From a virus, in IMG/VR virus record IMGVR_UViG_3300013006_000092, positions 1 through 31,378 of that record: 31,378 nucleotides of DNA; one strand, given 5' to 3'. A model generated the notes under the pieces. It saw nothing but the letters and a program-made list of their open reading frames with translations. It made no database searches and was not told the DNA's origin. Shown here piece by piece: positions 594 through 31,377 of this stretch. How positions within the stretch are numbered: the first letter of the stretch is position 1; every line of letters starts with the position of its first letter. The position numbers were made by a program, and so were the translations under genes.

Positions 594-596
594 AAA

Positions 597-1699: not shown

Positions 1700-1708
1700 G
1701 GAACAATC

Positions 1709-1879: not shown

Positions 1880-1880
1880 C

Positions 1881-2147
1881 ATGGCTAAGTTCAGTATGAA
1901 AAAAGGTGGCAAGGAAGTCGGCTCTGCCGAAGTCTACGCTGAACCACACACTATGACCGGCACCCCGGGCGTTGATATTAGCAATAGTGGGTACAGCACC
2001 CGCACCGGTAGCGAAGCTAATGAAATCAATATGTCTGTTGGCAACATCAACCGTAACGCCGCACCCGGCCCCAAAACTTCTGGCATTGAAATCCGTGGTT
2101 GTGGTGCAGCTACTAAGGGCACCAAGGCCCGTGGCCCGATGGCTTAA
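1881..2147 (+). CDS. Small hypothetical virion-region protein (88 aa)
   Basis: An 88-residue protein beginning MAKFSMKKGGKEVGSAEVYA, rich in Gly, Thr, Ser and Asn, and ending in a basic KGTKARGPMA tail. It shares the KKGGK string with the preceding 56-residue protein, hinting that the pair interact or derive from a common motif. There are no predicted membrane segments or catalytic motifs. It begins 1 bp after the previous stop and ends 2 bp before the next adaptor gene, so it is translated as part of the connector operon. The frame is supported by the tight spacing on both sides and by composition like that of its neighbours. The function is unknown. Confidence 0.65.
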   Translation: MAKFSMKKGGKEVGSAEVYAEPHTMTGTPGVDISNSGYSTRTGSEANEINMSVGNINRNAAPGPKTSGIEIRGCGAATKGTKARGPMA

Positions 2148-2149
2148 AT

Positions 2150-3249: not shown

Positions 3250-3258
3250 GGAGTAGTT

Positions 3259-4056: not shown

Positions 4057-4066
4057 GGAGTAACAA

Positions 4067-4246
4067 ATGGCTACTAAATTTAAGAAGGGCGAAGTTGTTA
4101 CTGCCAAGGCCGTTATTCCTAGCGGCCCGGTTGAAGCCTTGCGTATGGATGAAGGTGGTAATTTCTTCTACCAAATCACTTGGACTGACCTTGATGGTGC
4201 AGAACAATCTCGCTGGTTTGCGGAAGACCAACTGACTGTTGAATAA
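4067..4246 (+). CDS. Small hypothetical protein (59 aa)
   Basis: Gene of 59 codons from ATG 4067 to TAA 4246, with TTAAGGAG ending 6 bases before the start. The product begins MATKFKKGEVVTAKAVIPSG and ends RWFAEDQLTVE. The sequence suggests a compact SH3-like beta barrel (GEVV...VEALRMDEGGNFFYQITWTD...SRWFAEDQL), since such small barrels usually begin with a KGxxV strand and end with a short E-x-x-L turn. That fold is my inference. The gene fills the gap between the 3259 and 4266 genes and is coupled to the upstream stop. The role is unknown, perhaps a small accessory to the fibres. Confidence 0.7.
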   Translation: MATKFKKGEVVTAKAVIPSGPVEALRMDEGGNFFYQITWTDLDGAEQSRWFAEDQLTVE

Positions 4247-4265
4247 AAGACGGGAGAGTCGTTAA

Positions 4266-5345
4266 ATGTTTAGCGGCTACTCCTTTTCAGAAACACCGTT
4301 TTCGTCTGTAGGTATTGTATACGTACGAACTATATTAGAAGCTGCTTCTGGTGTTGATGCAACATCATCTTTACGCCTTTTGCCGGGGTCTATTGCAGAA
4401 ACAGCTTCAGGTGTTGATGCGACTTCTAGTTCATTCGTAGTTAATTCTACGGCTGCTGAAACAGCTTCAGGTGTTGATGCGACTTCTAGTTCATTCGTAG
4501 TTAATTCTACGGCTGCTGAAACAGCTTCAGGTGTTGATGCCACCTCATCCACCAAAACATTATCAAGCACAGTTACTGAGACAGCTTCAGGCGTTGATGC
4601 GACCTCATCCCTAAGAATTCTTCCGGGGTCTATTGCAGAAACTGCTTCATGTGTTGATGCGACTTCAAGTTCGTTTGTAGTTAATTCTACATCTGCCGAA
4701 ACAGCTTCTGGCCTAGATATAGTTTCCAGCATATTTGTAAGTAATATTTCGGTTATTGAAGCCGCTTCTGGCCTAGATACAGTTTCCAGTCTATTTGTAA
4801 GTAATATTTCGGTTATTGAAGCCGCTTCAGGTATAGACACGACCTCATCTTTGCGGGTTCTTCCGGGGTCAATTTTAGAGTCTAGTAGTGCTGTAGATAG
4901 TACCGAGTCTTCGCGGGTACTTAGTCCTGTTATATATGAGTCTAGCAGCGCGTTTGATGCTGTACTAAGTAGGTTTCTTTGGGAACTTATTGATGACAGC
5001 CAAACCGTCACATGGCAGTTAATTAATAGCGCTAATTACTTATACTCAAATGTAGCAACCTTTGCAGGTTTAACTTTTTCCGGCGACTCATTTGCCGGTA
5101 CAGGTTCTACACAAACACTTCCACCCCCGGCTTGGCAGAATATAAATTCTTCGCAAATAGTTACATGGACACTAATAAATGATGCCAACTATATTTATTA
5201 CACCAGCGCAACTTTTTCTGGCGGGCCTTTTTCTGATGATTCGTTCTCCGGCTCTGGATATGCGGCGGGTGTCCCATCCCCATTTTGGCAAAACATAGAC
5301 TCGTCACAAACGCAAGTCTGGAATATAATCCCAACAAATGCTTAA
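4266..5345 (+). CDS. Tandem 20-residue-repeat fibre-like protein
   Basis: A 359-residue protein. After a short head containing FSGYSFSETPFSSVG, residues about 25-235 are built from roughly eleven 20-residue repeats of the type ETASGVDATSSxxxxxxxxA. The C-terminal third contains three copies of a WQxInsSQxxxWxLIxxANY type unit with intervening FSGxxFSxxSFxGxG loops that echo the N-terminal head. The repeats suggest an extended fibre or stalk. No enzymatic motif is visible. A GGGAGA ribosome site precedes the ATG. Two neighbouring repeats are identical at the DNA level, so copy number has probably changed recently. The protein family is not one I can name. Confidence 0.6.
   Translation: MFSGYSFSETPFSSVGIVYVRTILEAASGVDATSSLRLLPGSIAETASGVDATSSSFVVNSTAAETASGVDATSSSFVVNSTAAETASGVDATSSTKTLSSTVTETASGVDATSSLRILPGSIAETASCVDATSSSFVVNSTSAETASGLDIVSSIFVSNISVIEAASGLDTVSSLFVSNISVIEAASGIDTTSSLRVLPGSILESSSAVDSTESSRVLSPVIYESSSAFDAVLSRFLWELIDDSQTVTWQLINSANYLYSNVATFAGLTFSGDSFAGTGSTQTLPPPAWQNINSSQIVTWTLINDANYIYYTSATFSGGPFSDDSFSGSGYAAGVPSPFWQNIDSSQTQVWNIIPTNA
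4338..4977 (+). repeat. 60-bp tandem coding repeats (about 11 copies)
   Basis: In-frame direct repeats with a 60-bp period, each encoding 20 residues. Copies 4398-4457 and 4458-4517 are identical and the identity runs on into the next copy to about 4540. A second, younger pair sits around 4704-4823 with the shared string gtaatatttcggttattgaa. Outer copies are more diverged. The unbroken frame means copy-number changes would lengthen or shorten the fibre without disrupting it. There are no unique spacers between copies, so this is not a CRISPR array. Confidence 0.9.
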
Positions 5346-5354
5346 GGAGCAATC

Positions 5355-6806
5355 ATGGCGCTCGTAGTCAAAGACAGAGTTAAAGAAACAACTACCACAA
5401 CCGGTACAGGTACCATAACTCTTGCCGGTGCGTCTACCGGCTATCAATCTTTTTCCGCTATTGGTGATGGCAACACTACGTACTACACAATATCTAACCC
5501 CGGCGTTAACGAATGGGAAGTTGGTATTGGTACATATACGGCTTCTGGTACTACGTTGTCGCGTACCACCATTCTTTCTTCTTCTAACAGCGGTAGCGCC
5601 GTTAGTTTCAGCGCTGGCACAAAAGATGTTTTTGTTGTTTACCCGGCTGGCAAAGCTATTTATCTCGACGCAAGCGGTAATTCTGTCGCCCTTGGTACTC
5701 CCGCAAGCACAACAACTTTAACTAACTGTACTGGCTTGCCAATATCTACCGGTGTTTCTGGTCTTGGTACAGGTGTTGCAACAGCGCTTGGTAACAACGT
5801 CAATACGACTGGGGGTACAGTAACCCAATCTGGCACTTTGGCCGCAAGTGCTTTGCTACTTGGTGGTGGCTCTGCAACGGCTATCACATCTACGACAACC
5901 GGCACTGGCGTTGTTACGGCGCTGGGGGTTAATACTGGCTCTGCTGGGGCTTTTGTAGTTAATGGTGGAGCATTAGGCACGCCATCGTCTGGAACACTAA
6001 GCAGTTGTTCGGGTCTGCCAATATCTACTGGCGTGTCTGGTCTTGGCACAAACGTAGCAACATTCCTTGCCACCCCATCAAGCGCCAACCTTATTTCGGC
6101 GATGACCGATGAAACAGGTAGCGGATTGTTGGTATTTGGTACGTCCCCAACAATGTCAAACGTCACCCTATCCGCCGGTACTGCGTCTCTGGCACCGGTA
6201 GCAATGACCTCTGGCACTAACCTTACAAGCCCAGTCGCTGGCACCATTGAGTATGACGGCACGAACTACTACGTCACGCCTACAACCGGTACCACGGAAC
6301 TGCGCGGTATTATTCCTTCGACGCAGCAGTTTGTTCTGTCTTCTAACGGTTCGGCGTTTGGCGCGGCAATCGGTAACTTCTTTGGTTCCAACAGCGCAAT
6401 TCAACTTGCCGCTACTACAACTTACTTTATTGAAGCCTACTGCTACTTCTTGAAGACTACGGCAGGTACGGCAACTTGGGCGGCTTTGTTTTCTTCTGCG
6501 CCTACGGTAGCCCATGCAACTTTGGAATACACGCCGGTTACGGGTTTCACAACCAGCATCATTACTGGCGCGATGGTTGTCGCTGAAGCAACCGCAAACG
6601 CGGTGGCAAACATGGCATTTGGTGCAACTGCCTCATTGACCACTGCTGTATATCACGTTGCAAAGTTTAGGGTTTTTGTTACTACCAACGCCGCTGCAAA
6701 CCTGCGGTTTAACCTTACGCAAAGCGCGGGCACTGCAACTCCACAGGCTGGTAGTTGGTACACCGTCAGAAAAGTAGCAACCAATTCAGGCAACTTCGTT
6801 GCTTAA
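5355..6806 (+). CDS. Tail fibre protein with GTPSSGTL repeat modules
   Basis: A 483-residue, Thr/Ser/Gly/Ala-rich protein. Residues about 1-105 form a conserved beta head (VKDRVKETTTTTGTGTITLA, YYTISNPGVNEWEVGIG, TLSRTTILSSSNSG) seen at the N-terminus of many phage fibres, probably the virion attachment part. The middle carries GTPSSGTL-xxCxGLPISTGVSGLGT units shared with the next gene. The last 150 residues (from about SNGSAFGAAIGNFFGSNS, then TTTYFIEAYCYFLKTT) look like a globular jelly-roll tip of the sort that trimerises or binds receptor. Its start is preceded by TTAAGGAG overlapping the upstream stop. A fibre role is well supported by composition, position and modules; the receptor is unknown. 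Confidence 0.75.
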   Translation: MALVVKDRVKETTTTTGTGTITLAGASTGYQSFSAIGDGNTTYYTISNPGVNEWEVGIGTYTASGTTLSRTTILSSSNSGSAVSFSAGTKDVFVVYPAGKAIYLDASGNSVALGTPASTTTLTNCTGLPISTGVSGLGTGVATALGNNVNTTGGTVTQSGTLAASALLLGGGSATAITSTTTGTGVVTALGVNTGSAGAFVVNGGALGTPSSGTLSSCSGLPISTGVSGLGTNVATFLATPSSANLISAMTDETGSGLLVFGTSPTMSNVTLSAGTASLAPVAMTSGTNLTSPVAGTIEYDGTNYYVTPTTGTTELRGIIPSTQQFVLSSNGSAFGAAIGNFFGSNSAIQLAATTTYFIEAYCYFLKTTAGTATWAALFSSAPTVAHATLEYTPVTGFTTSIITGAMVVAEATANAVANMAFGATASLTTAVYHVAKFRVFVTTNAAANLRFNLTQSAGTATPQAGSWYTVRKVATNSGNFVA

Positions 6807-9741: not shown

Positions 9742-9957
9742 ATGAAAGCCCTTATTTCTCCAAATGAAAAAGTTTATTTACCCGACGGCACTACTGGTGA
9801 ACGAGTTGCTTGGGTATGTGCAGAAGAATATTCTAGTGCGCCTCCATTATTTTGGGTGGATTGTGCAGATGATGTAGTACCGGACATTTGGTATTACGAC
9901 CCACAAGACCAACAAATCAAGCTACGTCCGGATATCACTGATGAACCGCAACCTTGA
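9742..9957 (+). CDS. Small fibre-associated protein (71 aa)
   Basis: A 71-residue acidic, Trp-rich protein (MKALISPNEKVYL, GERVAWVCAEEYSSAPPLFW, DDVVPDIWYYDPQDQQIK). Proteins of this pattern, with a start like MKALISPxE and a PLFWVDC-DDVV-xxWYYDP core, commonly sit directly downstream of phage fibre genes. A chaperone or capping role for the fibre is plausible but unproven. GGAG at 9728-9731 lies ten bases before the ATG, inside the end of the fibre gene. Its 3' end overlaps the next gene by 17 bp, indicating translational coupling to the oxygenase cassette. Confidence 0.65.
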   Translation: MKALISPNEKVYLPDGTTGERVAWVCAEEYSSAPPLFWVDCADDVVPDIWYYDPQDQQIKLRPDITDEPQP

Positions 9958-10579
9958 AATAAATTTTCTCGATTATCTTCAAACTGAAGAAAAGCACGGC
10001 CAAACAATTTGGCCATTTCACCTAGATAAAATTGAACCGTGGGCGTATTCAAATGCGGCTTTTACACCAGCTCAATGTAAGACCATCATTGAGATTGGTA
10101 AGAATCAAACGCTTGATACCGCAATTACTGGCGGAGGGAACAATCCAGCTAAAGACGATAAAATTCGTAAAAGCCGTACGTCGTGGATTTCCCCTGCTGG
10201 CGGTAATGAATGGATTTTTCAACGCATGACAGATGTGGTCATGCACTTAAACAAGCAATTTTTTAATTTTGAACTTTGGGGATTTGGTGAGGGTTTTCAG
10301 TTTACGGAATACCAATCACCCGGAGGGCATTACAAGCCGCACATTGACTGTATGTATAATGGGCGCATACGCAAATTATCGGTGGTTTGCCAGTTGACTG
10401 ACCCTGCTGAATATGAGGGTGGTGAGTTAATAGTAAACAATGGTGACGAAATAATTTTGCCAAAAGACCAAGGCACGGTACTTGTTTTTCCGTCTTATTC
10501 ACTGCACGGAGTTAAACCTGTAACCAGTGGCGCTCGTTATAGCCTTGTTGCTTGGCTTACCGGCCCAGCCTTCAAATAG
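9941..10579 (+). CDS. 2-oxoglutarate/Fe(II)-dependent oxygenase (prolyl-4-hydroxylase type)
   Basis: A 212-residue member of the 2OG-Fe(II) dioxygenase superfamily, which uses iron, oxygen and 2-oxoglutarate to hydroxylate a substrate. The iron-binding facial triad is visible as H134-x-D136 (GGHYKPHIDCM) and H189 (FPSYSLHGVKPV). The 2-oxoglutarate-binding basic residue is R199 (SGARYSLVAW), ten residues after the second His as in the P4Hc/PiuC group. The EYEGGELIVN segment before the second His is also typical. It is probably a complete, active enzyme of usual length for the family. The start overlaps the upstream fibre-associated gene by 17 bp. The substrate is unknown; position suggests a virion fibre, host surface or nucleotide target. 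Confidence 0.85.
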   Translation: MNRNLEINFLDYLQTEEKHGQTIWPFHLDKIEPWAYSNAAFTPAQCKTIIEIGKNQTLDTAITGGGNNPAKDDKIRKSRTSWISPAGGNEWIFQRMTDVVMHLNKQFFNFELWGFGEGFQFTEYQSPGGHYKPHIDCMYNGRIRKLSVVCQLTDPAEYEGGELIVNNGDEIILPKDQGTVLVFPSYSLHGVKPVTSGARYSLVAWLTGPAFK

Positions 10580-10588
10580 GAAAAGATA

Positions 10589-11185
10589 ATGCTTGCTGAA
10601 ATGACAGTTGGACAAAAAATCAACTTATCAGAAACTGCATTTATTGAGCGCCGTGAAGATGGGTACTGGAACGAAAAGAACTTGAAGGTTGTGCAGACTC
10701 CCGGTGCTATAGAAGCCTCCGTAGAACGCGGCCTGTTTCACCCTAAGGCGCATCAAGAGATTTTGAAGTTTGTGCAGTCTGAAGCGTTCTTGGTTGAACA
10801 AGACCCCACTGAGTTTCGCCGTCGCGGTGCGCATAATGTGCCGTTCTTTGTTCATATTCACCAACAACTCAAAGATGCTGCGTCGGAGATTTTTGGTGAG
10901 CCGGTCAAACCGTCATATGTTTACTTGAGTTTGTATAACGAGAATGGCGTGTGTCCGTTTCATACAGACCGTCCGCAGTGCAAGTACACCATCGACTACT
11001 GCATTGACCAAGACGTGGAGTGGCCGATATGGGTGGATGACAAGCCGTACATCCTGCAACCTAATGATGCGCTGTGCTACTCAGGAACTGATAGCCCACA
11101 CTGGCGTGAAAAAATAAAGGGTAAGTATTGCTGGCTGGCGTTTTTTCATTTTGTGCCAGAAGCGTTTGTTGGGCCTGTTAGCTGA
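10589..11185 (+). CDS. 2OG-Fe(II) oxygenase-like protein
   Basis: A 198-residue second putative 2OG-Fe(II) oxygenase, unrelated in detail to its neighbour. The C-terminal half carries H125-x-D127 (CPFHTDRPQCKYT) and a distal H171 in a TDSPHWRE context, preceded by an LQPNDALCYSG strand of the kind that leads into the second iron His in this fold. A basic residue for 2-oxoglutarate would be R173 or one of the lysines in KIKGKYCW. The N-terminal ~90 residues have no recognised motif. AGGAAAAG precedes the ATG, and the stop overlaps the methyltransferase start (TGATG). The assignment is weaker than for the upstream gene but the triad spacing is right. Confidence 0.7.
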   Translation: MLAEMTVGQKINLSETAFIERREDGYWNEKNLKVVQTPGAIEASVERGLFHPKAHQEILKFVQSEAFLVEQDPTEFRRRGAHNVPFFVHIHQQLKDAASEIFGEPVKPSYVYLSLYNENGVCPFHTDRPQCKYTIDYCIDQDVEWPIWVDDKPYILQPNDALCYSGTDSPHWREKIKGKYCWLAFFHFVPEAFVGPVS

Positions 11186-17681: not shown

Positions 17682-19604
17682 ATGGGTAAAAAAGGCGGGT
17701 CTGCTCCTAGTAGCCAGACCGTAACACAAACTAATATCCCCAAGTATCTTGAACCCTACGTTAAAGACGTAGCTGAACGCGCGCAGGCTGCGTCTAATCA
17801 AGATTACGTTCCATATTCCGGCCAACGCATTGCTGGCTTTACTGACCAGCAAAAAAATCTGCAGAATCAAATTGCAAACATGCAGACTCCGGGGCAGTTT
17901 GCTCAAGCAACCCAAGGCGCTCAGGCTGGCATGGGGATGGGGTATGCTGCGGGGCTAGCTGGCTTAAATCAAGCTTTTGGATACCAACCGGGGCAGTTTA
18001 GGGCCGACCAAGTACAGTCGCCTGAGCTTCAGTATTTCCAAATGAATCAACCGGGTGATGTTCAAGCCCAACAGCTTCAGAATTTTTCCATGCGCGGAGC
18101 GCAGGGTTCGTATAACCCCAACCTGCAAAACTATCAAATGCAGCGGCCTGAGGATGTTCAAGCCCAACAACTGCAAAATTATTCTATGCAGGGGGCGCAA
18201 GACAATACTAACTACATGGCGCAGCTTGAGAAGTACCAGATGCAAACCCCCCAGCAGGTAGCTGCTGAACGAGCTGCGTCTAGTGAATTTGGCGGAGCAG
18301 ATGCGTCGAAGTATATGTCGCCGTTCCAACAACAAGTTTCGGATATTGCAGCTCGTGAAGTTCAACGTCGCGCTGATATTGATAAAAGCCAAGGCGCTAT
18401 GTCGTCTATTGGTCGCGGTACGTTTGGCGGGTCTAGACAAGCTCTTCTTCAAGCAGAAGCTGACCGCAACACACAACAACAGATTGGCGATATTTACGCC
18501 AAGGGCCAGCAGTCTGCGTACGAAAATGCCCAGTCCCAGTTTGAGCGCGACCAAGCTCGCCGTATGGCAGCACAGCAACTTAATGTTCAGTCTGGGCTTC
18601 AAGCTGGATTAGCCAACCAACAAGCCGGTCTTACTGCAGGTCAAGCAAACCTTAATGCGCTTCTTGGTGTGCAGAGCCTAGGCACCACGTCCAATCTGCA
18701 AAACCGTTTGGCTAATCTTAGCAATCAACAACAAGCAAACGTACAGAATCTTGCGTCTCAACTGCAGACCCAAGGGCTTTCATCACAACAAGCATTACAG
18801 GCGGCGCTTGCTAATCAACAAGCTGGTCTATCCACCAACCAACAGAACCTTGCCGCTAATCTGCAAACACAACAACTTGGCACACAGACTGGCTTGCAGA
18901 TGGCTTTGGCTAATCTCAGTAATGAACAGCAGGCTAATGTGCAGAACCTTGCATCTCAACTGCAGACTCAAGGATTGTCTTCGGACCAAGCGCTACGCGC
19001 CGCTCTTGCTAACCAGCAAACGGGTTTGACTACAAACCAACAAAACCTACAAGCAGCTCTGGGTGTGCAAAGTCTTGGGGCCAATCAAAACCTAACGGCA
19101 CAGCAGCTTAATCAAGCAGCTAATCTGCAGGCACAACAAAACTCTGAACAAGCAAGACAATACGCCGCTGGGCTTGGTAGTCAGATTGGTCTTGCTGGTA
19201 TGCAACAGGGACTTGCCGGTTCACAACTGCTGGGTAACTTAGGCCTTAACCAACAAAACGCGGACATCGCCCGCTACGGCCTACAGACTTCCACTGCTGC
19301 TCAGCAACAAGCCTTAAACCAGCAGTACATGGATACACGCTATCAAGATTTTCTTAACCAACGCCAGTATCCGTGGGACCAGCTATATAACTATAGTGGC
19401 ATTATCCGTGGTTTACCGCAGCAACCCGGACAAACATCTACGATGTACCAACAACCACCCAGTCTAGCCGCGCAGTTAATTGGTGGAGCTGGCTCGCTCG
19501 CTACCGCAGCTAAAGCTCTTGGGGCCTTCGCCCGTGGCGGTGCGGTTAGAAATAAATATTCTGAAGGTTTAGCTGCTGTACGACTCAAAGAACTGGTGGG
19601 ATAA
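17682..19604 (+). CDS. Gln-rich helical repeat virion protein (probable internal protein)
   Basis: A 640-residue protein very rich in Gln, Asn, Ala and Leu. Residues about 110-190 contain a QAQQLQNFSMxGAQ-type repeat, and residues about 200-260 are a charged region ending SRQALLQAEADRNTQQQ. From about 300 to 500 come hendecad-like helical repeats, including two copies of a 66-residue unit with QQANVQNLASQLQTQGLSS (about 18709 and 18907). The ending holds LAAQLIGGAGSLATAAKAL and a FARGGAVRNKYSEGL tail. The start is preceded by a strong GGAGG. The organisation suggests an extended coiled coil or scaffold-like internal protein, such as an ejection protein, but the family is not certain. Confidence 0.6.
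   Translation: MGKKGGSAPSSQTVTQTNIPKYLEPYVKDVAERAQAASNQDYVPYSGQRIAGFTDQQKNLQNQIANMQTPGQFAQATQGAQAGMGMGYAAGLAGLNQAFGYQPGQFRADQVQSPELQYFQMNQPGDVQAQQLQNFSMRGAQGSYNPNLQNYQMQRPEDVQAQQLQNYSMQGAQDNTNYMAQLEKYQMQTPQQVAAERAASSEFGGADASKYMSPFQQQVSDIAAREVQRRADIDKSQGAMSSIGRGTFGGSRQALLQAEADRNTQQQIGDIYAKGQQSAYENAQSQFERDQARRMAAQQLNVQSGLQAGLANQQAGLTAGQANLNALLGVQSLGTTSNLQNRLANLSNQQQANVQNLASQLQTQGLSSQQALQAALANQQAGLSTNQQNLAANLQTQQLGTQTGLQMALANLSNEQQANVQNLASQLQTQGLSSDQALRAALANQQTGLTTNQQNLQAALGVQSLGANQNLTAQQLNQAANLQAQQNSEQARQYAAGLGSQIGLAGMQQGLAGSQLLGNLGLNQQNADIARYGLQTSTAAQQQALNQQYMDTRYQDFLNQRQYPWDQLYNYSGIIRGLPQQPGQTSTMYQQPPSLAAQLIGGAGSLATAAKALGAFARGGAVRNKYSEGLAAVRLKELVG
18709..19060 (+). repeat. 198-bp coding repeat (66 residues)
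   Basis: The unit beginning near 18709 (ggctaatcttagcaatcaac) recurs at about 18907 (ggctaatctcagtaatgaac), 198 bp apart, in the same frame, with mainly synonymous changes. It encodes LANLSNxQQANVQNLASQLQ followed by related Gln/Ala/Leu helices. The second copy is incomplete at its end. Confidence 0.75.
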
Positions 19605-21332: not shown

Positions 21333-24300
21333 ATGGTGTTCGATATTAAAGGCGCGCAAGCAGCCGGATACACCCCTGCCGAAATTGCGGATTTTTTAGC
21401 CGGCCAAAAAAACTTTGATGTTGCTGGCGCTAGAAAAAATGGATATTCAGATATGGAGATTTCTGAATTCCTATCCACAATGGGGGCGGCTGAGCCTACG
21501 GCCACAGCTACAGCTACATCTAAACCACAGGGTCCCCCCGTTTCAGAACAAGAACGCGCTCGCTTATCGTCAATGTATGAAGCGGCTACACCAGAACAAC
21601 GACAAAAGATGTTGGATAGGACTGACTACATTGGGCAGTTCGCTAATTTTCTTGATGAGCAATACAAAGCAAAAGACGCAGAAATTGCTAAGTTAGGTAC
21701 GGCAGTTAAAAAAGAATATCAAATTACTGACCCCCGCAGAGAAGCTAGAATTAAAGAAGCTATGCGGCAGGGTGCCGATTTGAAAACTGCGGAAAACCTT
21801 GCTGGTCAAGCAGCTATTGAGGGGTTACCCCCAGAACAACCCGTTGCACAGGCAAAGCCGTCTGATTTTGACTTTGATTTAAAAGCCCAATACAAAGATG
21901 CTCCAGCATTAGTCCGCGGTGCAGTTAAAGGATATTACGGATATAAACAAGGTGTGCTTGGTTTGGAGCAAGCCGCAGCCGATTTAATTGGTGCGGACGA
22001 GTTTTCTGAATCTTTGCGGCGTAACGCCAAACAAGCTATGGAGACCCAAGAAATTATTGGGGAAGCCCCTGCCACATCTGTTGCCCGTAATTTTGAAGGT
22101 GCGGTATCCAGTATTGCACAAAATATTCCAACATTACTTTTAGGTGCTGTAACGGGTGGGGAGTCTCTTGTTTTGGGAAGCATGATGGCCCAAAGCTTCG
22201 GCCAAGAATATACCTACGGTAGAGATAAAGGTCTTGATAAAACAGACGCTGCTGCGCGCGGTGCTTTGTTTGCAATTGCTGACGGCGTTGGAGAAAGGTT
22301 AGGTTTGCCTAATTTTATGAAGAACCTTAAAGGTTCCTTGGCAAACAAAAGTTTTAACGAAGCCACCGATGCAATTTCTGAATACATTCTTAAGCAAATT
22401 CCCGGTGAAGAACTTACGACTGGGCTTCAGTTCCTTACGGACAAATACCCAAACTTTGGGCTTAATCCCAAAGCTACATTTTCAGATTATCTTTCTCAAG
22501 CTACAGATACTTTAGTCCAGACAATTATGCAGGGCGGCATGATGTTGGGTGGGGTTAAAGCCACTCAGCTCGCAACAACTGGCCAGCTTAAAGAATCCGG
22601 TGCCGCAGAAGCGGCTAGGGCAGAAGGGGCTAAGGAACAAGCTCTTCGTAAATGGGAAGAACAGGGATTTACACGGCCTAAGTTTGCTGAACAAACGCAA
22701 CGCCAAGAACCGTTTGTTGGTGAGGAACCGCCGCCAGCACCCAAAGCTGCTGCAAAACCCGCCGCTAAGCCAGTAGAACCAGCCGCTCCTGAAGATGAGA
22801 TTCTTACACCGCAGACTATTGACTACGCAAAGATTGATGCTGACCTGCGGAAGAAAGGTTTATTACCTACCGAAGAATCGTCTGAAGATTTGGATGAGGA
22901 TGAGATTAATGAACGGCTTAGACTCTCTGCAGAACTGGAAAGCAAGCAGGAAGAAATAGACCCAGAAACGGGACTGCCGGTTTACACTCCAGCCCCGCGC
23001 GTCCGCAAGTTGGGCAAAACTCGTACTGAGTCTGAGCAGGCTAAGCTTGAACTTACCCAAGCAAAACGAAACCTTAGCAAGTTTGAAGCGGAAGTTCGTG
23101 GCGTAGAAAGCTTGTTAGGAGAGGCTGACCCTACAAATGTTGAACGCGTTCAAGAGCTTAGAAATACTGTAGCCCAAGCCCAGCAACGATACGACGCCGT
23201 TGAAGAAAAAAACAAGGCTAAGCAAGAACAACAAGCTGCTGCTGAAGGTAAATCACCGCCGCCTGTTGAGCCAGTTGGCCCGTCAAATGACAAGCTTCTC
23301 GAAGACTTAGGCAAGTTAAAAGATGACCTATTAACTTCGTCCGGCAAACCGCCCATGCCGAATACTCCGGCACGGAAAAAATACGATGAAGTCCAAAGTG
23401 CTTACGACGAAATAGAACAACGCAAAGCGCAAAACGAAGAAATTTCAGCGAAGCCCGGTGCAGACGTTGTTCGTTTAACAAAACTGCTGGGGCCTAAATT
23501 ATATGGCTCGTTAGAGAATCTACCTAAAGTTACAGTTAAAGAACTGTTTCAGAATTCGTTTGATGGTATTAAACCTCTTCTGGAATCGGGCGCCATTTCC
23601 GAAGGAAAAATTAATATTGGTGTGAATGAAGGAAATAGAACCATTGAAATGGTTGATAACGGCACGGGTATGGCGCCAAACATACTTGCCACTAAGTTTT
23701 TAGAAATTGCCGGTACTCAAAAAGAAACCGAAAGTGCGTCCGGTGGTTTGGGTATTGCGAAGATGCAGTTTTTATTTGGCAATAAAAATATTAAAGTCAT
23801 TACTGTCCGTGATGGAAAAATAAGCACGCTAGAGACTACTGGGCCTGATTTAGAAAAAGCGCTTAGCAATCCGGATGTTGCTCCCAAAATTACGGTTGAA
23901 CCGTGGGATGAAGCTGTAGCTAAAAACGAACAACTACAAAATTTATTTCCAGACAATTCTGGCACGTATGTAAAAATTGGGGTTCCGGAAACATTTCATA
24001 ATCCTGATACCGGTAAGGATGAGCCTATAGAACTTGATAATTGGGCGCATAGTTACCCCTCCCTGCGCACTAGCCCGTTATTTAGAAATGTTGATGTTAA
24101 TTTTCATACACTGCGCGATAAAGCTACTCTTTTTGGTGCTTTAACTGACCCCTCTAATAATTATTCATACTCAGAATCAATACCAGTAGGCAAGAACTTC
24201 CCTATTGATGAGCATTCACCCCTTACTACAGTTAAATTTGGTTGGGGTGACGCGGTTATGTATGTAACGCGAGAGCCGGAACAATATGAATGGAACCAAA

Positions 24301-27300
24301 GTAGAGTACATGTTTTATCTAATGGTATCTATCAATTTACACAAAAAATAGACAAAGGCCCTAAATATAATTTTTATCTTGACGTTCACCCTAAAGTTAG
24401 GGCAGAGGACCCCGGTTACCCATTTGACCTAAATCGTCAACGATTTTCTCCGGCGGTTGCTGGTGATTTTGATAAAATTTTTAATTATGTAAAACAGCTA
24501 TACGACGTTTCAGACCTTCAAAATAACACTACAAATTACGGCACGGTTAGATATTTAGAACCTTCTGGGCCAACCCAGCCGGAAACACTTTCGCCCCCAT
24601 TACCTGCTATGGAAGTACCCACGAATTTACTTCGTCCGGGCGACTCAATGGCTGTAATAAACGGTAAGTTGGAAATTAATGGGCGCCCAGTACCTGAAAT
24701 AACCAGCGCGGAAGCGTCTAGTTTTAAGATTGACTTAAATACGCTAGTTATTCCACAGGACCAACTTCGTACTGATGCGCCGATTCTTAACGATAATCTT
24801 TTAATTAAAGACAAACAAATTCCGTTTACTGAACTGATGGAATCTGAGTTTGGCCCTAGGTTTTATGACTATATGCGGGAATTGGGCGAAGCTTTTATGG
24901 AGCTTCGTGATGTAGTAGCTAAAGAAATGGGGTACGATAAATACAATTCTTATAAAGAAGTATCACTTGATAAAGAAGTGATAGGCATTAGTTTTGATAT
25001 AGAGTATCGTGGTGTCAGTACAAGAGTGCCTTTTTGGGGTATGTATTTAAACCCCGCCGCTGTTTCGTATGGGAATAAACTTTTTAGTGCCAGCGTTTCA
25101 CCGGAACGAGCAGCTTCTGCTATGTTTGGTACTATGGTCCATGAACTTGCGCACCATGAAGTACGTAGCCATAATGAAGAATTTCCCGCAGAAATGCAAA
25201 AGATTTCTGCATTTTTAGCCGTTCCCAACAATACAGATTTTGATTTAGAGGCATTTCTTAAAAATTTGAGAGAGCTTGTTGCGCTTAATTCTGACATTCA
25301 GTCAGAAATGGAACGAGTGTTTAATGAAGGAGTAAGTAATGACAATTTATCCCCTATTGGAAATCGCCTCAAAGAAGCTGGCTCCTACCAAACCACAGCT
25401 AGAGGCCCTGCTTCAGACTTGGGAAGTGATGGGTATACAGCAAGGAGCTACGAAAAACTACCTGAAGGACCTGCGGAAGGCGAGGGAAGTACTGGCAAAC
25501 AGCCGGGACGTAAGCGAGTTCCTAAGCAAGCTAAAGTAACTCCTCCCGAACCATATCAAGCCTCCTCCAGAAGTGGCCGTGGATTCTTCTCGCGTATATC
25601 TAAGAACTACACACAGTATCCGAAATGGAATGATGTAAGGCGGGAAGTATCTGCCCTCCTTCGTACTGCCCCCAGTAAAACTCGCCGTGCGGTTCTTGGT
25701 GCCCTGCCTAACTATCAGGTGATTGACCTTGCCGGTATGGAGTTTGATGTACTTGATGTGGAAAAAGGTAGACGTGGGTTCCGTACAAAGCTGCCACAGT
25801 TTGATGTACTTACCGCTAAGATTGGCGAGCTTGAAGCGCTGCGCAAGCGTATCGAAACCTCCGGGGCTAAAATTCTAGAGCGCAGTAAGTTGATGTATGC
25901 AAACAAACAGTTTGCTGAAGCCGTAGCGCTCGAAGAAAAAATTGAGTTGGAAGCCACCGCGTCAGAAGTTGACCCAGATACGGATACTTCAAATGCCTAT
26001 CTAAATGGTCTTTGGGGTAAGTTAGGCAGATTGCCCGGTGGCGAACAGGCAAAGCAAATTTACCGCGACCGCCTCAAGTTCTATAAGGTTATGTTTAATA
26101 ACGTCCGTACGTACATGGAAGGTGAAATGTATCGTACCTACCGGATGGCGGGTGAATCAGAAACGGCAGCAAAAACAAAAGCTAGAAGTTACGTAGAAAA
26201 GATTATGCCCGTAATTAAAGGGCCGTATTTCCACATGTTCCGCGTGGGTCAGTTTTGGTATCAGTACAACTTGCCTGATGTTGGTAAGGGCTTTGAGATG
26301 TTTGAGAGCGAGGCTGAGCGCAACGCTGAACTGGATATTGCCAAGGATGCCTATAGGGAAAAACTTAAAGAACAGGGTGTGAAAGAAAGCGAGATTGAAG
26401 CTAAGGTTGACGAAGCTTTCTTTGATGCTGGCAATGGGTTTAGCGAAGTATTTAATGACGCGATTGGTATGAAGATTGCGATGGACCGCGTCAAGGATAT
26501 TGTCAGTAATAGTATTGATAAACAGTTAGAAAAGGTAAGCGCCAATCCGGATGCCGAAGCAGATGAGGCTCTGAACAAAGCTAAGACCGCTATTACTAAC
26601 GAGCTTCAACAATTAATCCTGCAGCTTGCGCCTACTGGTAGCCTTCGTAAGATGTTTGCCCGTCGTAAGTTACGCGCCGGTGCCAACCCAGATATGCAGC
26701 GGTCTTTTGCGGATTCGGTGCTGAAGGTGTCTAACTTCTTCCCGAAGGTTGTATACGCAAAAGATATGTACGCAGCCCTGCGTTCGGCTAGAGAGTACGT
26801 AAAGTCGTCAACTTCCTCGGCAGAAGAGAAGGCTGTTGCTAAGGACTACATCAAGGAAATGGAGCTTAGGACGGACCAAGTTATGTCGCCGCCAAATCGT
26901 CCGCTTCCGGTACGGTTGTTTCAAACTCTTAATTTCTATCAGTATCTATCGTCTGTTGCTTCTTCAGTGTTTAACTTTGTAGGCGGCAATATACAAGCCG
27001 CATCTATCTTGTTTGGTGAGTATCCGGTATTAGGTATTCCCAAACTTATTCAATATAATTTTAAGCATCGTGCGGCTGTAGCAAAACAAGCACCGAACGG
27101 GTTGTTTTCTATTGGTATCGAATTTAACAAGAAACTAGACCCTGACATTAAAAAAGCTAGAGACCGCATGGTTGCGGAAAACGTGTTCAACGTATCCCAG
27201 ATGTACGATGTGGCCACAACTGCTAATACTCCCAGCGACAAACAACAAGGGATTATCACAACTGGATTAAACGCAATTGCTGTTCCGTTCCATTTAAGTG

Positions 27301-28637
27301 AGCGACTCATGCGTGAGTCCGGTGCCTTAGCTCACTTTGACTTGTCGCATGAAAAATATCTGGACAAGAAAAACGCGGACGGGTCCAAAACGTTTGATGA
27401 AGAAGAAGCATTTGAACGCGCATATCAAGACGCCGTTAATTTTACCCGCCGTGCTTTTGGTGAACCTTCGACTCTGCAACGTGGTCGCTATTTTAAAGAC
27501 TGGCGCGCCCTGCCCCTTCAGTTTAAGAGCTTTGTAGTACAACAGACCATATTCCAATATCAACTACTCACAAAGTCGTTAAACCTCTCTGCCAAAAAAG
27601 AACGTGCGCGTATTGTAAAAGACCTCGGTGAAGACGCCGCTAAAGAATTTGATAAACAATCCGCTGAGATGCGTTGGCAGGCTATTCGTACTCTTTCTGC
27701 GATTGTTCTTCTGTCCTACGCCTTTACTGGATTGAAAGGCACGCCGTTCTGGTGGCTTATCTCCAAGATGATTGGGCTTATCCACGCGTTGTATTCAGAT
27801 AATGACGAAGAAGTGCCATTTGACGCGGATAACTTCCTGATGAATTGGCTAGAAGAACATGTGCCTGAGCTTGGTGGGGCTACGATTGGCCGTGGCTGGG
27901 TAGCCGAAAAGCTAAATATCGCCACTGAAGGTAGGCTTGTTTATGACATCCCGTCATTGTGGGTATCTGAAGAAGGCGGCTCCGCCGCAAAAACCAACGT
28001 AGATGCAGTTAAGAATTTTATGCTGGGTATGTTGGGTCCCACTGCTAGCTACTTTCAAGACTGGGCCGCAGCTATTGATTTGTGGAGTCAGGGTAAATAC
28101 GAACGCGGTATAGAGATAGTTCTTCCTGCCGGTGTTCGTTCTTTGATGGTAGCTATCCGCGTTGCAAACGAAGGTGAAAAGACTAGGTCTGGCAAACAGC
28201 TTATTTCCAAGGATGAAGTTACCGAGGCAGATATTCTTTACAAAGCTTTTGGGTTTGAGCCTGAAGATTGGAAACGCAAAAAGTCTACAATCTTTGAGAT
28301 AAAGTCTAAAGATATTGCTATTCGTGACCGCCGCCAAGAAATCCTTGACCAAGCATGGATGGCCTATCAAGAAACTGACCCAGAAATCAAAAAAGAATTA
28401 ATGGATAAGGTTTTTAAACGCAAGGCTGACTTCAACGCGTTGTATGGTAGTTCACCTGCATATCGTCTACCCAACGATGCTATCCGGAAGACAATTAAAT
28501 CTAGAGCCAAACAGCAAGCAATAGCTCAACGTCAAGGCGGCATTAATGTGGACCGCAAAGCATACCCGATGTTGGAAGGAATGGGTAAGTACGGAAGATT
28601 CCCGTCCGAGTTGGGCGAGGAAGAAGACGAAGACTAA
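21333..28637 (+). CDS. Giant multidomain ejection/polyvalent-type protein with GHKL ATPase and HExxH metallopeptidase
   Basis: A 2434-residue protein with modules in this order. Residues 3-49 hold a duplicated FDxxGAxxxGYxxxEIxxFL motif. Residues about 190-420 are an Ala/Gly-rich hydrophobic region, followed by an acidic/Pro-rich linker to about 690. A GHKL ATPase (Hsp90 fold) follows: E737-LFQN741-SFD744, D775NGTG779, G804GLG807. A zincin-like peptidase comes next: H1270ELAH1274, with H1280 in RSHNEEF as possible third ligand. A linker runs from about 1330 to 1410. The C-terminal 1000 residues contain coiled-coil and membrane-like segments (YQYLSSVASSVFNFVGGN; LSAIVLLSYAFTGLKGT) and resemble large phage ejection and polyvalent proteins. 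AGGAAG precedes the ATG. It is the last gene of the + operon. Delivery into the host cell is inferred, not shown. Confidence 0.75.
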   Translation: MVFDIKGAQAAGYTPAEIADFLAGQKNFDVAGARKNGYSDMEISEFLSTMGAAEPTATATATSKPQGPPVSEQERARLSSMYEAATPEQRQKMLDRTDYIGQFANFLDEQYKAKDAEIAKLGTAVKKEYQITDPRREARIKEAMRQGADLKTAENLAGQAAIEGLPPEQPVAQAKPSDFDFDLKAQYKDAPALVRGAVKGYYGYKQGVLGLEQAAADLIGADEFSESLRRNAKQAMETQEIIGEAPATSVARNFEGAVSSIAQNIPTLLLGAVTGGESLVLGSMMAQSFGQEYTYGRDKGLDKTDAAARGALFAIADGVGERLGLPNFMKNLKGSLANKSFNEATDAISEYILKQIPGEELTTGLQFLTDKYPNFGLNPKATFSDYLSQATDTLVQTIMQGGMMLGGVKATQLATTGQLKESGAAEAARAEGAKEQALRKWEEQGFTRPKFAEQTQRQEPFVGEEPPPAPKAAAKPAAKPVEPAAPEDEILTPQTIDYAKIDADLRKKGLLPTEESSEDLDEDEINERLRLSAELESKQEEIDPETGLPVYTPAPRVRKLGKTRTESEQAKLELTQAKRNLSKFEAEVRGVESLLGEADPTNVERVQELRNTVAQAQQRYDAVEEKNKAKQEQQAAAEGKSPPPVEPVGPSNDKLLEDLGKLKDDLLTSSGKPPMPNTPARKKYDEVQSAYDEIEQRKAQNEEISAKPGADVVRLTKLLGPKLYGSLENLPKVTVKELFQNSFDGIKPLLESGAISEGKINIGVNEGNRTIEMVDNGTGMAPNILATKFLEIAGTQKETESASGGLGIAKMQFLFGNKNIKVITVRDGKISTLETTGPDLEKALSNPDVAPKITVEPWDEAVAKNEQLQNLFPDNSGTYVKIGVPETFHNPDTGKDEPIELDNWAHSYPSLRTSPLFRNVDVNFHTLRDKATLFGALTDPSNNYSYSESIPVGKNFPIDEHSPLTTVKFGWGDAVMYVTREPEQYEWNQSRVHVLSNGIYQFTQKIDKGPKYNFYLDVHPKVRAEDPGYPFDLNRQRFSPAVAGDFDKIFNYVKQLYDVSDLQNNTTNYGTVRYLEPSGPTQPETLSPPLPAMEVPTNLLRPGDSMAVINGKLEINGRPVPEITSAEASSFKIDLNTLVIPQDQLRTDAPILNDNLLIKDKQIPFTELMESEFGPRFYDYMRELGEAFMELRDVVAKEMGYDKYNSYKEVSLDKEVIGISFDIEYRGVSTRVPFWGMYLNPAAVSYGNKLFSASVSPERAASAMFGTMVHELAHHEVRSHNEEFPAEMQKISAFLAVPNNTDFDLEAFLKNLRELVALNSDIQSEMERVFNEGVSNDNLSPIGNRLKEAGSYQTTARGPASDLGSDGYTARSYEKLPEGPAEGEGSTGKQPGRKRVPKQAKVTPPEPYQASSRSGRGFFSRISKNYTQYPKWNDVRREVSALLRTAPSKTRRAVLGALPNYQVIDLAGMEFDVLDVEKGRRGFRTKLPQFDVLTAKIGELEALRKRIETSGAKILERSKLMYANKQFAEAVALEEKIELEATASEVDPDTDTSNAYLNGLWGKLGRLPGGEQAKQIYRDRLKFYKVMFNNVRTYMEGEMYRTYRMAGESETAAKTKARSYVEKIMPVIKGPYFHMFRVGQFWYQYNLPDVGKGFEMFESEAERNAELDIAKDAYREKLKEQGVKESEIEAKVDEAFFDAGNGFSEVFNDAIGMKIAMDRVKDIVSNSIDKQLEKVSANPDAEADEALNKAKTAITNELQQLILQLAPTGSLRKMFARRKLRAGANPDMQRSFADSVLKVSNFFPKVVYAKDMYAALRSAREYVKSSTSSAEEKAVAKDYIKEMELRTDQVMSPPNRPLPVRLFQTLNFYQYLSSVASSVFNFVGGNIQAASILFGEYPVLGIPKLIQYNFKHRAAVAKQAPNGLFSIGIEFNKKLDPDIKKARDRMVAENVFNVSQMYDVATTANTPSDKQQGIITTGLNAIAVPFHLSERLMRESGALAHFDLSHEKYLDKKNADGSKTFDEEEAFERAYQDAVNFTRRAFGEPSTLQRGRYFKDWRALPLQFKSFVVQQTIFQYQLLTKSLNLSAKKERARIVKDLGEDAAKEFDKQSAEMRWQAIRTLSAIVLLSYAFTGLKGTPFWWLISKMIGLIHALYSDNDEEVPFDADNFLMNWLEEHVPELGGATIGRGWVAEKLNIATEGRLVYDIPSLWVSEEGGSAAKTNVDAVKNFMLGMLGPTASYFQDWAAAIDLWSQGKYERGIEIVLPAGVRSLMVAIRVANEGEKTRSGKQLISKDEVTEADILYKAFGFEPEDWKRKKSTIFEIKSKDIAIRDRRQEILDQAWMAYQETDPEIKKELMDKVFKRKADFNALYGSSPAYRLPNDAIRKTIKSRAKQQAIAQRQGGINVDRKAYPMLEGMGKYGRFPSELGEEEDED
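25327..25332 (+). promoter_or_regulatory. Consensus Shine-Dalgarno (AAGGAG) internal to the giant gene
   Basis: AAGGAG followed by six bases and an ATG (25339) out of frame with the giant protein. It matches the strong sites used by true genes elsewhere in this window (for example TTAAGGAG before 3259, 4067 and 5355), which is the main argument for translation of the nested ORF. Confidence 0.5.
25339..25539 (+). CDS. Candidate overprinted small gene inside the giant gene (66 aa)
   Basis: A 66-codon frame in a different phase from the giant ORF, starting ATG 25339 and stopping TAA 25537-25539. A perfect AAGGAG (25327-25332) sits six bases before the ATG. The product has an ordinary globular, helix-rich composition (KPQLEALLQTWEVMGI, TKNYLKDLRKAREVLANS, FLSKLK) with CTG, CAG, GAG and AAG-rich codons. 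The host frame here encodes a low-complexity Gly/Pro/Glu/Lys linker, which is what is expected when one frame is constrained by another. No homologue is recognised. A chance ORF, or a legacy of a gene fusion, remains possible. Confidence 0.45.
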   Translation: MTIYPLLEIASKKLAPTKPQLEALLQTWEVMGIQQGATKNYLKDLRKAREVLANSRDVSEFLSKLK

Positions 28638-28730: not shown

Positions 28731-28910
28731 TTACTCCATCCGCCATACGCGGACCCCCCGCACTCCGTCTTCAACTACCGCCTGCATAGTTACCTTGTAG
28801 CCTAAACGCTTACAAGCTTTTTTGACTTGGCGTTTTGCTTCTAATACATCGAGGCAAGGGACAAAGAACGAAGAATACGGGTGGAACTTAGCCCAATCAA
28901 TCTCAAACAT
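28731..28910 (-). CDS. Small hypothetical protein downstream of primase-helicase
   Basis: A protein of 59 residues if started at ATG 28910 (MFEIDWAKFHPYSSFFVPCL...). Upstream in-frame starts are ATG 28928 and GTG 28937. I prefer 28910 because it gives the smallest overlap with the primase stop (an 8-bp ATGTTTGA overlap) and the sequence reads as a complete beginning. None of the starts has a strong ribosome site, so coupling to the primase is likely. The product is basic with aromatic residues and a final GVRGVRVWRME strand; a small nucleic-acid or cofactor-binding fold is conceivable but no function is known. The terminator lies 68 bp beyond its stop. Confidence 0.6.
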   Translation of the reverse strand: MFEIDWAKFHPYSSFFVPCLDVLEAKRQVKKACKRLGYKVTMQAVVEDGVRGVRVWRME

Positions 28911-31377
28911 TATCTGGTGCAGTCTCATACGGTTCACTACGCAGTTTATCTACCGACACAATTCTATTGACATACGCATCGGTATCGACAAACTCACCAT
29001 TGTCACAGTTAAATTCGTAGGCCCACACAGGCGGGGAGGCAATCATCGTGCCTTTTGCCATGCGCTTCTTGACCTTATCCATGAACACGCCGTCTTCCTT
29101 CAACTTAAGCAACAATTCTTTCATGTTAGTTTGTTGCTTACCACAGAAGTTTTGAAGTGACTTAGCTGTGATGTAAAGACGTTTAGTGTCCGGCTCGATA
29201 CGAACCATAAGTTCAAGCCTAGGTTCCCTAATCGGTAGCTGCTCCATGCCGGTGCGCTTGTCGGTGTTGTTGTTAACTACCAAGACGTTGTTGCGGTGGG
29301 CATTAAGGAACTCACCAATCACGCTAGATTGATTAGACAACGGTGGTGCGATTTGCAGTTTGAGATTCTTGAGATATTCAATTACCCACTTCATGATTCG
29401 CTTGGCGTCAATGCTAGTCAAATTAAGATGGTTGGCAACAACTAAACCAGCGATGTTAGCTGAGGCTACCGCCGACCAATACCGTTCTCTGCTTTGTAAT
29501 CCTGCGGTCTTATCAATTTCTTTTTGGATATGCTTGGCTAGTTCAGATACATCTTCTACGTGCCCTGCCAAGTACGTGAAGTAAATGTCCGCAGCAGTGC
29601 CGTAGTTGTCGTTTAGTTTGCCAAAAAGCGCGTCCGCTTCTTCTTTTGAGAAGAGGTTTGTCGGATGAATTTCGTACTCCATAGTACGCATCATTTCCCC
29701 ATCAGGTGATTCCTTAAGCAGATGCAGCTTGTCATAGAACGACGCGTTAGATGTGGACACCGTGATGTTTGCCCAAGTCAGGTTGATACGCTCTGTGTTT
29801 TCTGAGGAGCGCAGACGGCCACGGTTCTTTCCGTTAGACGCAGCATAGGCAAAGTTAGAGAAATCCTCTGGCGATACGTTGGTAATTTCGTCGCACGTAA
29901 ACGCAAGATTGTTCATCATTGCCATACGATTTAGCTTGAAGTTTGTTGTGTCGTTGAAGGTACACATCAAATCGGTGGGGTGCCCAACAAGCGAGTTAAT
30001 GGCTTTAAGGATTGTGGTCTTACCCGTACCAGAGTCATCGCTGATTAGGTTAATAACGGCACCGCGAACGCCCATAAATTTAAGGATAGGTGAACCAAAG
30101 CACGAGCTAAACGCAAACGCATGCGGCTCAAGTCCGGGACGGTTGTATGTATCTATAACGCTACGCCATTCCTGCAGGGTGCCCTTGGGTTCCATCATCG
30201 ACGCAACGTACTCCATAGAAGACGCGGGAGGGCTGTGCTTAATCGTGTCTGCGCCAATCTCTCGGTTGCCAACTACAAACCTACTATCTTCCTCAATCCA
30301 GCCAAATTGCAGCTTCATTTTTTCTGCTTCCTTTTCAGTTATTAGTTTGTTACAGCAAGACACGATGTAGAACATAACAAGTTCCATTTGCGCTGCCGTT
30401 CCAACAATCCCCCTAAACGCTAGCCGTTCTTTTAGCTTGTTGGTTTGTGCCATATCTGACATAGGAACTGTGAATTCCACGATGCCATCAAGCGGAGTTT
30501 CAAGCCGCATGTACGCGCACATGCCCTTATCTGGGTCGCTCATACGCTTCAAGACAAAAAGGTTATGGGGGTAAACTTGTGTAGGACCTTCGTCTTCTTC
30601 GTCACGTGTCCATTTATAAATACCGCCGGTTTCTCCTACTACGAACGGATAGGGTAATTCTGGTATCTCATGGGATACGGTATGTACTAACTCGCCAACC
30701 GTTTCTTTAACAAGCATTTCTCTCTTATTAGATACCTTAATCTCAGCACCTAACTTAAGCGGAGTGCCTATCTTCTTGTGCGCACATCCGCGACAACCTC
30801 CGGGGTTTTCTTCCTCAAACTTCCTACATGAAGTCCAGTGTTGTACTTGGTCTGCTTTCTTTTCTGTGTTTTCAGGGGTGTAGTCTGCGTGTCCCTCTGA
30901 AACTGTGTGAATGGCTTGTTCTGCGTCCACACAGAATTTGGCTATAGATAAAGCATAGAACCATTGATTGTAGGAAATAGTGTCTCTATTACGAATGATG
31001 TGTTCTAGTTGTGCGCACCCTGTACCCTGCTCATTTTTTTGAAGGATAGTTGAGAACCGATACTGGGTGTTTGGGTCTACATCAGTTGTGGGTCGGTTAA
31101 ACCCACTGTGCGTTACCACACCCCCTGCGTCTTTTAGGATAGCCGCGAATGCGTCTATGTGTATATTCGATGCCATGTGCAGCACCGATACAGGTAGGGG
31201 TGGGTCTGTCTTAAAGTTAAGTGTATTTGGAACACGCAGGATTCTAGCTGCGTCCGCCGTAATAGCATGGTCTACGTTTAGCTTGTGCTTGGCACAAAGG
31301 GATTTAAGTTGCTCGGCTATCGGCTTCCATGCTGAACGGGGTAGCGTTTCATGTAACGTCCAATACACGTGGACACC
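28903..31377 (-). CDS. Primase-helicase (AEP-type primase + P-loop helicase), 5'-truncated at window edge
   Basis: The frame stays open to the window's end and the visible N-terminus reads GVHVYWTL, the AEP primase sHx motif. The GTG at 31368 is therefore internal and the gene continues outside. A further primase signature, ADAARILRVPNTLNFK, follows. Next is a Cys/His cluster (SCRKFEEENPGGCRGCAHKK, near 30781-30835), suggesting a zinc site. The helicase part has a Walker A motif (SDDSGTGKTTI, about 30010-30045) and a Walker B segment (LAFTCDEIT, about 29884-29905), of the DUF927/SF3-like type. It would prime and unwind phage DNA. It is encoded opposite to the virion genes. Confidence 0.8.
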   Translation of the reverse strand, partial: GVHVYWTLHETLPRSAWKPIAEQLKSLCAKHKLNVDHAITADAARILRVPNTLNFKTDPPLPVSVLHMASNIHIDAFAAILKDAGGVVTHSGFNRPTTDVDPNTQYRFSTILQKNEQGTGCAQLEHIIRNRDTISYNQWFYALSIAKFCVDAEQAIHTVSEGHADYTPENTEKKADQVQHWTSCRKFEEENPGGCRGCAHKKIGTPLKLGAEIKVSNKREMLVKETVGELVHTVSHEIPELPYPFVVGETGGIYKWTRDEEDEGPTQVYPHNLFVLKRMSDPDKGMCAYMRLETPLDGIVEFTVPMSDMAQTNKLKERLAFRGIVGTAAQMELVMFYIVSCCNKLITEKEAEKMKLQFGWIEEDSRFVVGNREIGADTIKHSPPASSMEYVASMMEPKGTLQEWRSVIDTYNRPGLEPHAFAFSSCFGSPILKFMGVRGAVINLISDDSGTGKTTILKAINSLVGHPTDLMCTFNDTTNFKLNRMAMMNNLAFTCDEITNVSPEDFSNFAYAASNGKNRGRLRSSENTERINLTWANITVSTSNASFYDKLHLLKESPDGEMMRTMEYEIHPTNLFSKEEADALFGKLNDNYGTAADIYFTYLAGHVEDVSELAKHIQKEIDKTAGLQSRERYWSAVASANIAGLVVANHLNLTSIDAKRIMKWVIEYLKNLKLQIAPPLSNQSSVIGEFLNAHRNNVLVVNNNTDKRTGMEQLPIREPRLELMVRIEPDTKRLYITAKSLQNFCGKQQTNMKELLLKLKEDGVFMDKVKKRMAKGTMIASPPVWAYEFNCDNGEFVDTDAYVNRIVSVDKLRSEPYETAPDNV

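Follow-up and report, generated by a model that had tools for sequence, protein, structure and literature searches.

The window analysed here, a 31,378-base virus record from IMG/VR (IMGVR_UViG_3300013006_000092), carries as the last gene of its structural operon an ORF for a 2434-aa polyvalent-type protein (Table 1) in which two unrelated enzymatic domains, a GHKL ATPase and a zincin metallopeptidase, are joined in one very large polypeptide. The initial annotation had placed an ATPase and then a peptidase inside one frame, and this was borne out: the GHKL signatures KELFQNSFD (residues 736–744), DNGTG (775) and GGLG (804) were all located, as was H1270ELAH with its downstream H1280, which is the sole HExxH of the protein. 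In a PHROGs search residues 1744–2409 matched phrog_10089, labelled “DarB-like antirestriction” (E 1.8e-29), and the N-terminal region resembled the N-terminus of a 2792-aa protein from podovirus ctEw122, the gene for which lies between tail-tube/M23-peptidase genes and a tail fiber gene and which occupies an internal-core/ejection-protein position. The ejection-protein-like membrane segments that had also been proposed were not convincing in the window protein, where no 19-residue window reached a Kyte-Doolittle value of 1.6 (best 1.57, residues 2260–2278); a window of ≥1.6 was, however, present on the C-terminal side in 28 out of 55 family members.

Table 1. Features of the giant protein gene in the window, and gene-split junctions in four related loci (coordinates of the respective locus).
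Feature	Position	Strand	Evidence
Polyvalent-type protein, 2434 aa, last gene of structural operon	21333..28637	+	ORF; phrog_10089 match
N-terminal region, residues 175–410	21855..22562	+	Resembles N-terminus of podovirus ctEw122 2792-aa protein, E 6e-7
Exchangeable GHKL+zincin cassette	23286..25487	+	92% DNA identity to L003; amino-acid profile
GHKL (Bergerat) ATP-binding domain, residues about 715–880	23475..23972	+	Pfam, AF2, Foldseek
N-box K736-E-L-F-Q-N-S-F-D744 (catalytic Glu E737, N741, D744)	23538..23564	+	K736, E737, Q740, N741, D744 70/70
G1 box D775NGTGM780	23655..23672	+	D775, G779, M780 70/70; G777 69/70
G2/lid G804-G-L-G-I-A-K810	23742..23762	+	G804, G807, A809, K810 70/70; G805 69/70
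G877-T878 motif	23961..23966	+	30/30 and 29/30
Middle/transducer domain, invariant R1035 (PFDLNRQRF), approximate boundaries	24045..24557	+	Conservation; Foldseek to Hsp90
Zincin domain, residues about 1155–1345	24795..25367	+	AF2 pLDDT 89, pTM 0.88; WLM/YgjP similarity
Active-site motif H1270-E-L-A-H1274-x5-H1280-xxx-F1284	25140..25184	+	H1270, E1271, H1274, H1280, F1284 70/70
C-terminal scaffold, residues 1528–2425, Lastavirus/LPD39-type	25914..28607	+	Profile search
Gene-split junction, L036	11244–11248		
Gene-split junction, L037	11091–11100		
Gene-split junction, L038	11088–11097		
Gene-split junction, L098	11172–11202		

In the ATPase half, all the motifs of the GHKL superfamily were present (N-box E/N/D, DxGxG, glycine-rich lid and GT). 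The last of these, G877-T878, was absent from the initial annotation and is probably the fourth GHKL (Thr) motif. Pfam HATPase_c_3 matched residues 734–842 with an E-value of 2.6e-5, scoring 24.7 bits on the whole protein and 25.8 bits on the module alone against a cut-off of 25. An AlphaFold2 model of residues 701–1350 built from 26 alignment rows (pLDDT 82.9, pTM 0.67) matched HtpG/Hsp90/TRAP1, MORC2, MORC4 and gyrase in a Foldseek comparison with the PDB, with a best E of 6.9e-15, confirming the Bergerat fold expected from the motifs. The alignment to Hsp90 extended over ~420 columns, corresponding to the N-domain plus middle domain; Hsp90 outranked MORC among the PDB matches, with MORC2 with DNA and MORC4 also ranking high. 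The model thus predicts an ATPase of the Hsp90/MORC-type N+middle fold, and R1035 may, by analogy, match the catalytic Arg of the Hsp90/MORC middle domain. While Hsp90 (HtpG, TRAP1) and MORC resemble the module in this arrangement (E about 1e-11 to 7e-15), they share 11–15% identity with it, and the module is fused to a protease and a phage scaffold. The Hsp90 C-terminal dimerisation domain was not found in the Foldseek comparison, the chain running on into the zincin, and no DNA-binding domain was recognised in the window protein. Against viral models, the first Foldseek match was the BFVD entry A0A516L4L2_1, which alone among the structure-library matches covered the module from end to end (662 columns at 29% identity, E 5.6e-52); Hsp90-like proteins, rIIA and topoisomerases came next. 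T4 rIIA is likewise a phage GHKL ATPase and weakly similar to the module, but it is stand-alone, has another C-terminal region and lacks a zincin; the similarity was of superfamily grade (E 1e-3 to 5e-5) and did not reach beyond the GHKL part, and a scan of 20 window proteins gave no rIIB neighbour.

The zincin half was modelled confidently when taken alone (AF2, 40 alignment rows), giving three strands, the HExxH helix and a second helix. The active-site fold anticipated in the initial annotation was supported in so far as the model is confident, but not by a solved structure, since Foldseek against the PDB returned nothing significant for the zincin alone (best E 0.6); zinc peptidases were among the top matches (E 0.6–5.6), including three Wss1 entries in the top 40 (E 3.0–5.6). 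In a profile search of PDB chains, proabylysin (0.027) and Wss1 (0.034) scored best, both aligned over the HExxH motif region. Pfam WLM was sub-threshold in the window protein (residues 1264–1325, 17.6 bits against a cut-off of 26), with the best score among family members at E 1.3e-6. The WLM/Wss1 and YgjP metallopeptidases have the HExxHx5HxxxF motif in common with the zincin, which differs from them in an additional conserved GVSxD...YRGV...NP block and shows no significant fold match. The MPTase-PolyVal zincins are also HExxH peptidases within phage polyvalent proteins, but their third ligand is a Glu from the second helix (PMC5512222), whereas the module has an invariant His1280 six residues past HExxH (HExxHx5H), a pattern that also sets it apart from the LHELLHAAT motifs occurring elsewhere in some of the carrier proteins. 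H1280 would be the candidate third zinc ligand, and judged by its sequence pattern the zincin appears WLM/Wss1-like and unlike the MPTase already known from polyvalent proteins, with its Glu ligand.

Two close carriers of the module, L002 and L003, were found in a first scan and three further carriers, with 36–40% identity, in a module scan; alignment scans yielded 32 loci and then 143 related stretches, the best 80 of which were retained. Loci were picked by either of two peptide patterns, TM[VQI]HE[LF]AH or [SA]GG[LF]GxAK..., so that conservation inside these stretches is partly selected for; E737, N741, D744, D775, R1035, H1280 and F1284 lie outside both. The 20 modules picked by the GHKL pattern alone still aligned to H1270/E1271/H1274/H1280, and KExxQNxxD was present in 5/5 modules picked by the zincin pattern alone. 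GHKL and zincin occurred together, in the same ORF and the same order, at 119 of the 120 loci examined, and the ATPase-peptidase order was kept in every homologue having both. The exception was a bacterial MAG protein in which GHKL only was detectable, either a more distant bacterial relative or a remnant (L044, 5277–13727, a 2817-aa Acidobacteria protein in which GHKL is accompanied by the motif HETTHx5E).

Removal of near-duplicates left 70 modules, all with GHKL followed by zincin, 55 of them in complete ORFs of 1590–3391 aa (median 2859). E737, N741, D744, D775, G779, M780, G804, G807, A809 and K810 were conserved in all 70, as were R1035, H1270, E1271, H1274, H1280, F1284 and the middle-domain residues Q1001, F1002, Y1029 and P1030, with G777 and G805 in 69; a few members had one extra residue before the Phe of the HExxHx5HxxxF site, its His/Glu/Phe positions being otherwise 70/70. 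Free variation of the catalytic residues among homologues is thereby ruled out, and conservation of the module is far beyond chance. Some complete carriers also contained NUDIX, ART-PolyVal or lysozyme domains. The 3391-aa carrier in L106 (5209–15381), for example, has LPD38, a NUDIX hydrolase and a weak match to ART-PolyVal in addition to GHKL-zincin.

No full module match was found by tblastn in 50,697 cultured-phage records, which gave one weak GHKL fragment (E 0.07), and a divergent family member gave rIIA-level GHKL matches only in cultured phages. The plasmid matches were confined to the GHKL part and were to ATP-binding proteins of a generic kind. The GHKL-zincin pair looks phage-specific because the matches in bacterial genomes were confined to one full-module contig, L043, and a few of GHKL only, in 4 of the 297 genomes from a different phylum. 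On that contig, from a Deltaproteobacteria MAG, a 2080-aa frame (3–6242) joins GHKL-zincin to a helix-turn-helix and ends in a polypeptide deformylase domain (E 4e-36). PADLOC gave no match for the window module and weak REase matches only for its relatives.

The GHKL-zincin pair moves between scaffolds as one cassette and is separable from the scaffold. The cassette of the window is 92% identical in DNA to that of L003, whereas synonymous sites are saturated in the flanking coding sequence to either side of it. Among 50 carriers compared, module identity was 0.94 and scaffold identity 0.32 for L002/L003, with the opposite disagreement in L015/L010 (module 0.66, scaffold 0.94). Divergence was correlated more closely between GHKL and zincin (rho 0.72) than between zincin and scaffold (rho 0.49), although shared phylogeny may be part of all rho values. 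In close relatives dN/dS was 0.15–0.17 for the ATPase and 0.44–0.55 for the zincin, indicating constraint on both parts that is weaker for the zincin. Recent import of the module was considered from its GC content (41% vs 46–47%) and rejected: module GC was lower than that of the rest of the ORF in 55/55 carriers, and the difference is therefore one of amino-acid composition. In L036, L037, L038 and L098, which belong to two divergent groups, the ORF ends 106–123 residues past the zincin, about ten bases or less from the start of the following gene; this following gene gave a scaffold match in L036, L038 and L098 but not in L037, the junction DNA of which nearly equals that of L038.

The C-terminal ~900 residues are probably a scaffold that builds the protein into the virion. 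A profile of the window scaffold found the C-termini of giant proteins from Vibrio phage douglas (5.8e-126), PE002 (1.5e-123), Microcystis phage Mwe-JY07 (1.8e-120) and Klebsiella phage SopranoGao (gp06, 4.7e-112), and in these ~55–62 kb phages too the giant gene lies downstream of virion-protein genes. No Pfam LPD domain scored in the window protein itself, the scaffold of which is homologous to LPD39 proteins; LPD39 scored in 7/18 GHKL-zincin carriers and LPD38 in others. The “DarB-like” giants of Lastavirus, PEp14 and Vibrio phage douglas (PLxRFG proteins, LPD39) have a C-terminal scaffold of ~870 residues in common with the window protein (E 1e-112 to 1e-126) but neither GHKL nor HExxHx5H, their cargo being of the methylase/helicase or pyrophosphatase/methylase type. 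The slot in phages with the common scaffold is filled by SLT, Eco57I methylase and SNF2 helicase or by pyrophosphatase and methylase, and the GHKL-zincin module was absent from cultured phages with this scaffold. A minority of GHKL-zincin proteins have instead the LPD38 scaffold of the Bcep22-like DarB-like protein JC1 gp69, which differs in its methylase/helicase cargo and in a scaffold unlike that of the window protein; the JC1 gp69 C-terminus found L022/L068, L106, L111, L063 and L069 (E 2.5e-24 to 1.5e-12). The same module therefore rides on at least two unrelated C-terminal scaffolds, of the Lastavirus/LPD39 and Bcep22/LPD38 types. JC1 gp69 is a virion protein by MS, with 51 unique peptides (PMC9144972). 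A direct transfer of this proteomics to the window scaffold was rejected, since a profile of the window type fails to match JC1 gp69 (E 0.1); by position and homology the window-type protein would likewise be packaged in the virion, the JC1 proteomics covering the other scaffold type.

By architecture the 2434-aa protein is a polyvalent protein carrying previously undescribed cargo, and the pairing of an Hsp90-fold ATPase with an HExxH peptidase within a single phage protein of polyvalent type, as put forward in the initial annotation, was upheld by motifs, order and the LPD39-related scaffold. Known polyvalent-protein cargo includes methylases, helicases, ADP-ribosyltransferases and zincins, and GHKL, HATPase, gyrase and Hsp90 go unmentioned in the founding survey of these proteins (Iyer et al. 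2017, PMC5512222). Among the open-licence papers searched, only one joins “polyvalent protein” with GHKL, and it treats topoisomerases and rIIA separately (PMC7824862); none was found to describe the GHKL-zincin pairing, and an earlier account elsewhere is possible.

The reading that best fits these data, to which we assign a probability of about 0.5, is that the module is polyvalent-protein cargo acting as an ATP-gated protease after injection. The giant protein would enter the cell together with the phage DNA; the GHKL N-domain would bind ATP, dimerise and close over the middle domain, by analogy with the GHL class (Hsp90, MORC, MutL, gyrase), and the ATPase cycle would clamp a substrate or present it to the fused zinc protease of WLM/Wss1-like type, so that a host or DNA-bound protein would be cleaved early in infection. 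The gating by ATP is suggested by the fusion and co-inheritance of the two domains. Three points favour this reading: the module is exchanged without regard to the scaffold, the slot holds known anti-restriction cargo in relatives, and a coexisting separate zincin could do any self-processing. More tentatively, the module may represent a new class of virion-delivered effector, an ATP-gated clamp protease that phages trade as a sealed cassette and in which an Hsp90/MORC-type dimerising ATPase feeds a Wss1-like zincin; host defence proteins or proteins bound to DNA would be stripped or destroyed by it as the phage DNA enters. Both active sites are invariant across the about 70 distinct sequences from uncultured phages that hold this cargo, which predicts a virion-delivered ATP-dependent protease; if this is true, a regulated protease would join the anti-host arsenal and a natural ATP-gated zincin would become available for study.

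The main rival is a self-processing or ejection machine, in which the zincin would cut the giant protein into its mature pieces, either inside the head or during entry, with the Hsp90-like domain serving as an intramolecular chaperone for its unfolding or refolding during ejection. Autoprocessing by zincins has been proposed as a common theme of polyvalent proteins (Iyer et al., PMC5512222), and the natural gene split 106–123 residues past the zincin falls where a processing cut would be expected, although simple modularity would explain it just as well. However, the module moves between scaffolds that are 32% alike and between unrelated scaffold types, and it is wholly absent from cultured relatives with the same scaffold. 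In addition, a further HExxH outside the module, mostly LHELLHAAT or LHEVLHAAT, was present in 34/55 carriers, where chance alone would give about 0.006 per C-terminal part; this second zincin-like motif lies before or after the module (e.g. L109, L116, L029, L009, L039), is missing from the window protein and could do the processing where it occurs. A separate second zincin in over half of the carriers argues against a purely self-processing role, which we regard as rather improbable.

With MORC and Wss1 among the relatives, a MORC/MutL-like clamp on incoming DNA could act with a Wss1/SPRTN-like protease to remove bound or crosslinked proteins such as restriction complexes or nucleoid proteins. 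The high Foldseek ranks of MORC2 with DNA and MORC4, the alignment of the zincin motif to Wss1 and the DNA-protecting DarB-type cargo held in the same slot by scaffold relatives are consistent with such clearing, but it is unlikely given that no DNA-binding domain was recognised in the window protein, Hsp90 ranked above MORC, WLM fell below its curated cut-off and the Wss1 fold match was not significant. It is more doubtful still that the ATPase acts like T4 rIIA as a membrane or exclusion-suppressing factor against host exclusion, with the zincin as accessory: the named phage GHKL proteins that come closest in sequence and in structure include rIIA families, yet the likeness is confined to the GHKL part, the zincin is invariant in relatives, and rIIA is a separate protein and not within a giant late-operon protein. 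There is equally little probability that the module comprises two independent enzymes which merely travel together and have separate targets. Polyvalent proteins often join unrelated activities (PMC5512222), and the higher dN/dS of the zincin agrees with this, but the constant order at all but one of the loci is unlike typical polyvalent shuffling, and GHKL and zincin identities correlate.

Some minor observations concern the genes around the giant gene. A primase/helicase-like gene convergent with it (28903–31377, minus strand) is 96% identical to L003, the adjoining scaffold being ~32% identical. The upstream gene for a 640-aa product (17682–19604) contains internal direct repeats at a spacing of ~198 bases, which showed up off the diagonal in the comparison with L002, and in the structural region an adjacent gene pair (9941–11185) matched PHROGs labelled 2OG-Fe(II) oxygenase and “ferrochelatase”.
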